A stretch of DNA of 64,000 nt from Desulfatitalea tepidiphila (GTDB taxonomy: Bacteria; Desulfobacterota; Desulfobacteria; Desulfobacterales; Desulfosarcinaceae): assembly GCF_001293685.1 (NCBI RefSeq), contig NZ_BCAG01000007.1, positions 1 through 64,000 on the forward strand. Direction: 5' to 3'. This document shows, piece after piece, positions 52,370 to 55,568 of this stretch. The stretch's first letter is position 1; every line of letters begins with the position of its first letter. The notes below the pieces were generated by a model. That model saw only the letters and a program-made list of their open reading frames with translations, did not search any database and was not told where the DNA came from. The position numbers and the translations under genes were made by a program.

Positions 52370-52996
52370 ATGATCACCTGGTCCCAATTCGGCCTCTTCA
52401 CGGCCGCGTCCCTCGTCCTGATCTTCACCCCCGGCCCGGACATCATCTACGTGATGACCCGCGGCATGGCCCAGGGCCGCAGGGCCGCCCTGGCCGCAGC
52501 GGCCGGGTTCAGCCTGGGCAATTTCGTCCACACCTTCTTTGCCGTGATCGGCCTGTCGGCCCTGCTGGCCGCCTCGGCCACCGCCTTTCACATCGTCAAG
52601 TGGGCCGGCGCCGCCTATTTGATCTACCTCGGGGTTCGCATGATCCGCAATGCCTCGGCCGCCGACCTGTCCGTCCAGGGGCCGCGCATGAGCGGTTGGG
52701 CCGTTTTTCGCCAAAGTATCGTGGCCAATGTGCTCAATCCCAAGGTGGCCATCTTTTTCCTGGCCTTCTTCCCGCAGTTCATCGATACGGGCAGGGGGGC
52801 GGCTCACTATCAGATGATGCTGCTCGGCACCTTTTTCGTTCTGCTGACCTTCGTCTGTTTTGGATTGGTGGGAATCTGTTCGGGGTGGATCGGCGGGTGG
52901 CTCAGGCGCAACACCAAAGCCGAGATGCGCATGGGCCAAATCGCGGGCGCCATTCTGATCGTTTTGGGGTTGAGCCTGGCCATACCGGAAAATTAA
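52370..52996 (+). CDS. LysE/RhtB family exporter
   Basis: A 208-residue membrane protein with about six hydrophobic segments. [20 protein letters not shown] is the LysE/RhtB N-terminal signature, followed by [20 protein letters not shown] and [20 protein letters not shown]. Members export amino acids such as lysine, homoserine or threonine and related compounds. The stop overlaps the converging diguanylate cyclase gene by 4 bases. Confidence 0.88.
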
Positions 52997-55179
52997 TCGG
53001 CATCCTCGATGGTGGTCTCCGCTTTTCGCTGCCACTCGACAATCTGATTGCGCCCCTGTGCCTTGGCCCGATAAAGGGCCTTATCGGCCTGTTCGACCAG
53101 GGTTTTGGCCGAAACACTGCCCGCCGGGATCATGGCCGCCACGCCAAAACTCAATGATACATACTCATACACGTGGCTGGCGGGGTGGGGTATTTTCAGG
53201 GCGGTCACGGCGGCCCGGACCTCGCCGGCAACGAGGGCGGCCCCCTGCAAATCGGTACTGGGCAACACGATGGCGAACTCCTCGCCGCCGTAACGCGCCA
53301 CCAGGTCCATGGGGCGCTTGAGCGTGCCGCTGATGGCCTGGGCCACGGCGCGCAGCGCTTCGTCCCCCTTCACGTGCCCATAGGTGTCGTTGTACAGCTT
53401 GAAAAAATCGATATCACATAATACGACGGCCAGGTAGGTGCCCTCGCGGCGCGCCCGTCGCCACTCTTCGGCCAATCGCTCGTCAAATCGACGGCGATTG
53501 GCGATCTGGGTCAAATCATCCAGCGCGGCCAGGCGCTGCAGCTCCTCGTTGGCCTTTTGCAATGCCAACTCGACCTGTTTGTACTTGCCGATGTCGATGA
53601 GCGTACCGAGGATGCGCAGCGCCGCTCCCCTGGCATCCCGCTCCACCGCCCGCCCCCGCACCTGCACCCAACGCCACTGACCACCTTGGCCCAGCATGCG
53701 CAGTTCGATTTGAAAGGCCTCATTGGCCCCGGAGATGATCTTCCCGAACGTATCTTTGAGAAAGGCCACATCTTCGGGATGGGCCAAGGTGTTCCAGGTC
53801 TCCATGCTGGAGGGCAGCTCACCGGCCTCATAGCCCAACATGGAGAACCAGCGCGGGCTGAAGTAAATCTGGCCGACCTGGGGCAGATAATCCCACAAGC
53901 CCTCGTCGGCCGAATCGAGGGCCAGGTTCAGGCGTCGTTCGTTCAGATTCATGGCCTGTTCATTGCGCTTGCGGAGCAGGGCCTCGACAAAAATGCCTGT
54001 CAGCGTTTCGATGTCGTAACGGTCCACCAGGGCATAGCCGTTTGGATTGTTGGCCAGGGCGATGAACCCGGAAACCCCCGTCTGTTTGGGCAATGGAACG
54101 GCGAGCAACGTCTTGACTTCCGGGAACCCCTCGGGAAAGGGTTGCCAATCCGCTGTCTGGTCCCCGGCGGTCAGCATGACCGGCTCATTCCCATGGACCA
54201 TATGGCGCCATAGATCATTGAAAAGCGACCGGTCGTCCTGATCGGCCTGGCCCTTGACCGGGTCGCCGGCCGCCTGCATGGCCACGACCCGCCATTGACT
54301 TTCGCTTTTTTCGGCCATGAATCCAAACGGGCTCTCGGTCAGGGATTGGGCGGCCTGCAGGCAGGTGCTGGCCAGGGCATGCTCACTGCGATCGGTCAGA
54401 ATCTGCTGAAGGACCCGGTTGATGGCATCCAGCAATTTGGATTTCCGCACGATCTGCTCTTCGGCCAGATCCCGCTCCAGGACCTCCAGCTGCAGCCGCT
54501 TATTGGTGCTGATCAACTCGGCCGTGCGCTCCTGGACCAACCGTTCCAATTCGGTTTTATATCGATCCAACTCGCTTTCAAGACGCTGAAGTTTGGAAAG
54601 ATCCTGGGCGAGCACCAGGTTCTGAAAACCGAGCAGGGTGATCTGGCCCGCCAGGTTGTCGATCCAGGCCAATACCTTTTGAAAATCCGCCTCGGTGCCT
54701 TGCGGGCACTTCGCCAACACTCGCCAAAGGGTCTCCCCATCCAGACCCACCTGCTGCGCATAGCCGAAAACTTTCTCCTTATCGACCCGTTCATCACACA
54801 CCCGGGCGATCCACCAATTGGCCAGATGGCGATCGTGGACCAGAATGGGAACAGCCGCCTTGATGATCCCCAATGGTTCGATATGCCTGAAGGCCGGCTT
54901 CTTATCGCTCCTGATTTGGTTGGCGATGGCCCTGTCGTGTTTCGAGCATCCGTCGTCCGCTGACTCGGATTGCCGGATCAGCTCGCAAATGGGGCTGTCG
55001 TTGCTGGTCATGGTCAGGGGATTGCCATCCGGATCCGTGATGACCGATCTGACACCCCCCATTTCGGCGAGCGCATCCTGCAACTGCTGCAGATCCTCCA
55101 AAGGAATCAGGTTCAGCAATGATATCTGGTCCGGAAGACGATGGCCTTCCCGACCCGCCCTATATGATCTTTCGATCAT
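52993..55179 (-). CDS. Diguanylate cyclase with PocR, GAF and PAS sensory domains
   Basis: A 728-residue cytoplasmic enzyme that makes c-di-GMP. Residues about 18-185 resemble a PocR ligand-sensing domain with conserved Cys; a coiled coil (about 190-245) leads to a GAF domain (about 250-410), a PAS/PAC (about 415-545) and the GGDEF domain. The active site is GGEEF (631-635), with the inhibitory RxxD (RPMD) five residues before it. [13 protein letters not shown] keeps the Asp used for guanine recognition in PleD, which favours c-di-GMP over hybrid products. Its start overlaps a small upstream ORF (ATGA), and a GEMM riboswitch lies in the leader. Confidence 0.92.
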
Positions 55180-55394
55180 TCAGCTTTTTCCCACCGGTTC
55201 GACCGAGATGCCTTCATCGTGTATACGTACCTGTAGCCCCCGTCTTTGCGACGCACCAACAGATCACATGGACAGGCGCGTCCCTTTCTATCGGAACACC
55301 ATCCTGTCTCGGCCTGGAGACATCCCAGGATGCCGCTGTCTCCTGGTGGGACCGGCCGTCGTTCACCCCAATCGCTCGCGACGGCTGTATCCAC
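55176..55394 (-). CDS. Small Cys-rich ORF translationally coupled to the diguanylate cyclase
   Basis: Up to 72 residues. The stop (TGA) overlaps the cyclase ATG by four bases, and the ORF lies between the riboswitch terminator and the cyclase. The C-terminal part reads [20 protein letters not shown] and [12 protein letters not shown], with four Cys that could bind metal. The GTG start at 55394 has no clear ribosome site. AGGAG lies further in, ahead of non-ATG codons, so the true start is uncertain. No family is recognised. It may be a leader peptide or a partner of the cyclase. Confidence 0.45.
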
Positions 55395-55405
55395 CGCATC
55401 GTGAC

Positions 55406-55440
55406 AAAAAAACCGGACTGCCGCCAGGCAACCCGGTTTA
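55406..55440 (-). terminator. Intrinsic terminator downstream of the GEMM riboswitch
   Basis: On the minus strand, AAACCGG pairs with CCGGTTT and TGCC with GGCA inside it, followed by seven T. It starts about 17 bases after the riboswitch core and precedes the small ORF and cyclase genes. This is the standard expression platform of transcription-controlling riboswitches. Confidence 0.85.
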
Positions 55441-55456
55441 AAACAAACGATTCATC

Positions 55457-55535
55457 CAGGCAGCTCGGCTATCCGCAAAACACGGACCCGCAACTTTCCG
55501 TCCTCCGGTTACCCGAAGTTTGGCTTTTCTGGCTA
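55457..55535 (-). promoter_or_regulatory. GEMM-I riboswitch (cyclic dinucleotide sensor) in the diguanylate cyclase leader
   Basis: The minus-strand RNA shows the GEMM-I plan. The P1b stem CTTCGG/CCGGAG is capped by the GNRA tetraloop GTAA and preceded by CCAAAC. The conserved junction GGACGGAAAG follows, then the second stem GGGTCCG...CGGATAGCC and GAGCTGCC. CCAG and CTGG close the outer helix. GEMM-I RNAs bind c-di-GMP or, in some Geobacter-type variants, cGAMP; the discriminating base cannot be assigned by eye. It sits between a sigma-54 promoter and an intrinsic terminator. Confidence 0.82.
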
Positions 55536-55552
55536 TCAGCACATTCCCGTAA

Positions 55553-55568
55553 CGCAATGATAGTGCCA
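55553..55568 (-). promoter_or_regulatory. Sigma-54 promoter for the riboswitch-cyclase transcript
   Basis: On the minus strand, TGGCAC-T-ATCA-TTGC matches the -24/-12 consensus TGGCACG-N4-TTGC at all but one position, with correct GG-to-GC spacing. The predicted start is near 55542, a few bases before the riboswitch core at 55535. Confidence 0.75.

Follow-up and report, generated by a model that had tools for sequence, protein, structure and literature searches.

GEMM riboswitches have been described upstream of DGC and PDE genes (PMC3971182, PMC12564702), and c-di-GMP riboswitches are said to control c-di-GMP metabolism only rarely (PMC6366702). In the relevant passages of PMC3971182 and PMC12564702, the DGC and PDE examples (Weinberg, Sudarsan) are stated generally and without a worked example. 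Other members of the family are tied to different outputs. The Cd1 riboswitch of the Clostridioides difficile flgB operon joins a class I aptamer to a separate terminator that is opposed by an antiterminator; its aptamer and terminator coexist and it is an OFF switch, whereas in the pilM riboswitch the two structures are mutually exclusive and the switch is ON (PMC9262584). In Geobacter bemidjiensis a GEMM riboswitch precedes fibronectin type III genes (PMC2996986), and the Geobacter GEMM-Ib/GacA pair combines a related aptamer with a GGDEF enzyme, with cGAMP as the ligand and a Hypr enzyme carrying Ser-348 (PMC6456294).

Here we describe the leader of a diguanylate cyclase gene within a 64,000-nucleotide stretch of Desulfatitalea tepidiphila DNA, referred to as the window. 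The leader resembles Cd1 in having a class I aptamer, a separate terminator with a predicted antiterminator, and a probable OFF sign, but Cd1 controls flagellar genes and the parts of PMC9262584 consulted mention no sigma-54 promoter. Like the GEMM riboswitches found before DGC and PDE genes, it would place a c-di-GMP sensor ahead of a c-di-GMP metabolism gene, and here the arrangement occurs in 11 of 11 genomes together with a sigma-54-type box. It belongs to the same RNA family as the G. bemidjiensis riboswitch, but its target is a cyclase and its expression platform a terminator, and it differs from GEMM-Ib/GacA in that the enzyme is an Asp/GGEEF cyclase.

A promoter box, aptamer, and terminator are conserved before the cyclase gene

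The features of the locus, all on the minus strand, are listed below in the order in which they would be transcribed.

55554..55568, minus strand: sigma-54-type -24/-12 promoter box (TGGCAC-N5-TTGC), recognized by sequence pattern and found in the same position in all 11 genus leaders
55456..55534, minus strand: c-di-GMP-I (GEMM-I) aptamer with a GUAA loop, RF01051 at 57.0 bits against a cut-off of 35
55455..55468, minus strand: strand A, the 3' strand of aptamer P3/P1, with predicted antiterminator pairing to strand T (55436-55423)
55406..55439, minus strand: intrinsic terminator, with a 13-bp stem (55439-55410), the loop UGGC, and a T tract to 55406
55176..55394, minus strand: open frame of 72 codons containing Cys, judged to be outside the system
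52993..55179, minus strand: diguanylate cyclase of 728 aa (PocR-GAF-PAS-GGDEF) with GGEEF, an RPMD I-site, and a guanine-type Asp

A reading of this DNA made from the letters alone (the sequence-only reading) had proposed a feedback module composed of a -24/-12 box, a GEMM-I RNA, a strong terminator, a small Cys-rich ORF, and a cyclase with a retained I-site. All of these parts held up except the small ORF, and the box, aptamer, and terminator are kept before the cyclase in 11 of 11 Desulfatitalea genomes, so far as sequence can tell a real and conserved module in the genus. The genus set comprises 11 genomes, including that of the window, and was assigned to Desulfatitalea by one named member; its leaders are those in rows L114-L120, L128, L134, L136, and L138 of the box and T-run comparison. 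Because the window and G291 are near-duplicates, as are G293 and G294, about 9 of the 11 genomes are clearly distinct.

The box (TGGCACTATCATTGC, 55568-55554, minus strand) has GG at -24, GC at -12, and the fixed spacing between them. Such a box is not rare when taken alone and could occur by chance: the window holds 2 matches where 0.56 are expected, and 11 of 100 shuffles reach 2. It stands out from chance because it is conserved in all 11 genus genomes, where it starts 42-50 nt upstream of GCCAAAC, with GG/GC (a TTGC end) in 9 leaders and GG/GA (a TTGA end) in 2. Transcription from a sigma-54 promoter starts 12 nt after the C of the -12 element, and applying this rule predicts a start near 55542, about 8 nt before the aptamer. 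The second TGGCAYN5TTGC match in the window (10974-10960, minus strand; TGGCACACCGCTTGC) may be a chance occurrence. One rpoN was found in the genome, as were 66 Sigma54_activat matches; since this domain also matches in all 14 control genomes, not every match represents an activator.

The downstream gene is a PocR-cyclase in 8 of the 11 genomes, and in G293, G294, and G152 it is the same cyclase with no PocR match. The three orthologues without a PocR match (L134, L136, and L138) keep the box, riboswitch, and terminator. Of 12 stretches downstream of the relatives' aptamers (10 of the genus and 2 of a sister genus), 11 contain a GGDEF match; the remaining one, G256, has PocR and GAF/PAS matches before its contig ends. 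In the sister genus, a 48.5-bit aptamer precedes a PocR-GGDEF homologue in G029, and a 33.1-bit match, below the cut-off, precedes another in G301 (G301:C418). A similar pattern found no -24/-12 box at the G029 locus (L121), whose aptamer has a long P3 insertion. Among seven loci encoding other PocR proteins of the family (L121-L127), L121 alone has a GEMM at threshold.

The terminator layout points to a probable OFF switch

The strong terminator named in the sequence-only reading is present in all 11 genus leaders, with the T run beginning 106-117 nt after the GCCAAAC point. The Rfam match to the aptamer ends at 55456 and the terminator starts at 55439, so that the two do not overlap; the same is true of all 11 leaders, and both fit into one predicted fold in the window and several relatives. 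We infer an OFF switch from this Cd1-type layout (PMC9262584) together with a predicted antiterminator, and by that analogy the leader would exert negative feedback on the cyclase.

The putative antiterminator arises from a near repeat. Aligning the 11 leaders shows that the 5' arm of the terminator (typically ACCGGGUUGCCUGG) nearly repeats the 3' strand of the aptamer (typically GCCGGGCUGCCUGG), and since both strands are nearly self-complementary, strands A and T can pair with each other over 13 positions. Standard pairs make up 93.0% of the 143 cells (13 positions in 11 leaders). With transcripts cut near the start of the 3' arm of the terminator, the five outer A:T pairs form with an average probability of 0.94 or higher in 8 of 11 leaders and of 0.83 in G280, while in G256 (P 0.00) and G226 (P 0.04) the helix does not form in that register. 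Folding thus predicts the antiterminator in 8-9 of the 11 leaders. For full-length transcripts, 7 of 11 leaders have antiterminator and terminator states separated by no more than about 1.1 kcal/mol. The antiterminator is favoured in G292, by 4.2 kcal/mol, and the terminator in G256, G280, and G226, by 2.9, 3.8, and 10.7 kcal/mol respectively. G256 folds best (-55.6) into a third state that lies far below both forced states (-42.8 and -39.9).

Null controls on this prediction gave mixed results. Each leader was compared with 150 versions in which the base pairs of the terminator stem were permuted and flipped. Relative to the null mean, the no-terminator state is better in 10 of 11 leaders, and the energy gap between the no-terminator and terminator states is as low as the real one in at most 3% of nulls for 7 of 11 leaders (6% for G243, 15% for G280, 18% for G256, and 62% for G226). 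In 5 of 11 leaders, 2-4% of the nulls reach the real fraction of the terminator 5' arm tied up by upstream sequence; in the remaining 6, which include the window (23%), 9-27% do. Against shuffled T strands, the A:T duplex energy gives fractions from 0.0025 to 0.245, with 7 of 11 below 0.05. Across the 11 leaders, A:T covariation is no better than that of shuffles (of 500, 190 score at least as high), and the terminator has neither compensatory changes nor covariation beyond shuffles; both pairings are nearly invariant. Pairings of the terminator with the P1 5' strand or with the P2 loop were also considered as antiterminators, by eye.

An ON switch, in which c-di-GMP would prevent the terminator and positive feedback would produce a bistable commitment to high c-di-GMP, is one alternative, and we consider it unlikely. 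Some GEMM riboswitches with terminators are ON switches, as pilM is for cGAMP (PMC9262584), and the resemblance between the aptamer 3' strand and the terminator 5' arm could allow a more elaborate strand exchange. The aptamer and terminator of pilM are mutually exclusive, however (PMC9262584), a relationship at odds with the separation seen in 11 of 11 leaders and with the shared predicted fold described above.

The cyclase and the aptamer lean toward c-di-GMP

The cyclase gives Pfam matches to PocR, GAF_2, PAS_3, and GGDEF, and its closest named relative found is that of Desulfatitalea sp. UBA4791, at 96% identity over the cyclase. The RxxD I-site of diguanylate cyclases serves product inhibition. 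The I-site expected from the sequence-only reading is there, as RPMD five residues upstream of GGEEF, and its retention makes product inhibition of the enzyme likely. At the guanine-selectivity position, where Hypr enzymes have Ser, the cyclase has Asp. All 12 readable cyclases (10 of the genus and 2 of the sister genus) combine GGEEF, RPMD or RPTD, and this Asp. The motifs of the cyclase can be read from the DNA directly, as can the aptamer family, the box, the terminator, and their conservation.

In the aptamer, model position 11 (Vc2 G20) has a G, and the CC at the 3' end, with Vc2 C92, is retained; both are invariant in the 11 leaders. Binding of cGAMP to a class I GEMM aptamer has been studied with the G20A change (PMC6274999), and canonical enzymes have Asp in place of Ser348, with Ser/Thr-348 enzymes carrying GGDE[F/Y] exclusively (PMC6456294). 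Because of its Asp/GGEEF combination, c-di-GMP is the expected and likely product of the cyclase. On the question of c-di-GMP or cGAMP, which the earlier reading had left standing, the G at the Vc2-G20 position in 11 of 11 leaders and the Asp/GGEEF enzyme make the ligand lean toward c-di-GMP. Were the aptamer instead to bind 3',3'-cGAMP or to be promiscuous, the loop would be cross-talk and not product feedback; GEMM-I does include cGAMP sensors (GEMM-Ib) in Geobacter (PMC6456294, PMC8835794) and this aptamer is divergent, but the same two features, compared with PMC6274999 and PMC6456294, led us to disfavour the cGAMP/Hypr reading and to regard it as quite improbable.

The aptamer is divergent and retains its core

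A search with RF01051, which the earlier reading had proposed as a check, matched 55534-55456 (minus strand) at 57.0 bits (E 1.7e-8, full model 1-87, cut-off 35), and this was the sole Rfam match at threshold in the window. The GEMM-I core foreseen by that reading is present, with the loop GUAA (not GAAA) and the GGACGGAAAG junction, and the RNA is assigned to the c-di-GMP-I family, of which it would be a ligand-binding member. Aligned to the model, the pair adjoining the ligand site is C-G where G-C is usual. The GUAA loop is present, and the CUAAG/UAUG stretch, the 11-nt receptor to which a GNRA tetraloop docks, is deleted. A pattern for the C-G swap (a GCC or CCC core, a GNRA loop, and GGACGGAAAG) is found in 144 of 389 genomes sampled from the class, with one match to the reversed control among the matches listed, and the variant is thus common in the class. 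The other three RF01051 copies of the genome score 82-84 bits, and the lower score of the cyclase leader suggests that affinity may be low.

A decayed aptamer, behind which the terminator would attenuate transcription at a constant level, could account for the score of only 57 bits, the 41.7 bits of the G256 aptamer, and a P1 (CCAG/CUGG) that by eye is complete in 8 and incomplete in 3 of 11 leaders, but it is about as improbable as cGAMP sensing, since the core positions are invariant in the 11 leaders and the aptamer helices show compensatory changes (9 cells changed on both sides, with 0 of 500 shuffles as high; 4 pairs, with 53 of 500 as high), covariation of a kind that can also exceed shuffles through relatedness alone.

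The small ORF is not counted in the module

The proposal that a small Cys protein belongs to the circuit was rejected. The 72-codon ORF has no Pfam match at E 0.1. In the G291 leader, which is 93% identical, the frame is cut to 43 aa, and by eye no listed small frame in the other 9 leaders resembles it; there, the distance from the terminator to the first possible cyclase start is 0-258 nt. The conservation check called for by the sequence-only reading therefore removed the ORF from the module, since its frame is not conserved among the 11 genus leaders.

Sigma-54-type boxes accompany other GEMM riboswitches of the genus

TGGCAYN5TTGC occurs 66 times in the genome, compared with 12 times for the reversed pattern, and all four GEMMs of the genome have a match starting within about 100 nt upstream. 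Across the genus, using at least 8 of 10 consensus positions within 150 nt upstream as the criterion, a box precedes 20 of 25 non-cyclase GEMMs (19 of 23 and 1 of 2 more); for the 23, the opposite strand gives 0 and shuffles predict 0.38. Two further genus matches were left out, the first because it lies at a contig edge and the second because it scores below the cut-off. In other genera, a box lies at 5 of 25 top-scoring GEMM loci (0.32 expected; one locus was dropped because its upstream part was too short) and at 7 of 50 loci found by the variant pattern (0.72 expected). Judged by these patterns, the coupling of sigma-54-type boxes to GEMMs is strong in the genus and weaker elsewhere.

A search of 31 GEMM promoters for spaced dyads and for 7- and 8-letter words gave no convincing activator site common to them. 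No spaced dyad, in a search run without a control, recurred in more than 2 of the 31. Words were compared with single-letter shuffles, and only A/T-rich words exceeded the shuffled maximum (ATAAAAA in 10 promoters against a largest shuffled count of 9, and TATAAAAA in 7 against 5). These words were not accepted as an enhancer-binding site.

By eye, 16 of the 25 non-cyclase genus GEMMs (L001, L002, L003, and others) precede secreted proteins that look fibronectin type III-like, as in G. bemidjiensis. Several of the 25 have CATCTC...GGGAGATG immediately before the ATG, an arrangement that looks like a translational platform, and a run of at least 6 T within 110 nt occurs in 5 of 25. Elsewhere in the order, other genera carry GEMM-variant cores in tandem, four to six of them within a few hundred bases (G009:C109:700-1164; G082:C122 and C136; G017:C75 and C79).

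The GGDEF, PocR, and GAF-PAS parts of the window's cyclase were searched by tblastn (E 1e-5) and found downstream of 0 of the genome's 3 other GEMMs and 0 of 40 GEMM loci in other genera, a non-random set that joins 20 pattern loci to 20 of the 26 order-level loci with the highest scores outside the genus, each covering 1.8-4 kb. An earlier check of 101 downstream stretches also gave 0, in stretches of at most about 1.6 kb in which far domains would be missed.

Discussion

We think it probable that this leader acts on a diguanylate cyclase as a transcriptional OFF switch, driven by sigma-54 and sensing c-di-GMP. In the proposed mechanism, an enhancer-binding protein would activate sigma-54 RNA polymerase at 55568-55554, and the RNA would begin about 8 nt before the aptamer. 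With little c-di-GMP in the cell, the aptamer 3' strand and the terminator 5' arm would pair as an antiterminator and the cyclase would be transcribed. Once c-di-GMP has accumulated, we infer that the 3' strand would be held in the aptamer, the terminator hairpin would form, and cyclase synthesis would stop, while the retained I-site would inhibit enzyme that had already been made. Riboswitch and I-site together would provide product feedback at the RNA and protein levels, on top of promoter activation. The two levels of feedback suggested by the sequence-only reading would act in this way, and the sign that it had left open is probably OFF.

GEMM riboswitches before cyclases (stated generally and called rare), GEMM OFF switches with terminators, and sigma-54 promoters are each known already. 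The same reading had found no described example of the arrangement; the part of this that stands is that, as far as the literature was searched, the combination of box, aptamer, terminator, and cyclase in 11 of 11 genomes of a genus seems new, and the part that does not is the placement of GEMM before cyclases, which was already described (PMC3971182, PMC12564702). That sigma-54-type boxes so often accompany GEMMs in the genus is likewise new as far as searched. Among the literature matches listed, which included few subscription journals, no title dealt with a GEMM riboswitch transcribed from a sigma-54 promoter or with experimental GEMM feedback on a cyclase, and the main text of PMC2725144, on the RpoN regulon of Geobacter, contains no riboswitch or GGDEF.

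More tentatively, the genus may possess a c-di-GMP regulon in which nearly every riboswitch is fed by sigma-54, adhesin-like outputs are controlled translationally, and the regulon's own cyclase is switched off by the messenger it makes, giving a self-limiting c-di-GMP pulse and an output gated twice, by sigma-54 and by c-di-GMP. The layout is compact and can be tested in vitro, and its specific cyclase target is the same in 11 of 11 genus genomes. It also brings to light an association of c-di-GMP riboswitches with sigma-54-type boxes for which the literature search found no description. If the proposal is true, the signal received by an enhancer-binding protein would be converted into a self-limiting c-di-GMP pulse, and the leader would offer a natural example of a riboswitch giving product feedback in second-messenger signalling, in addition to inhibition through the I-site and to sigma-54 activation.
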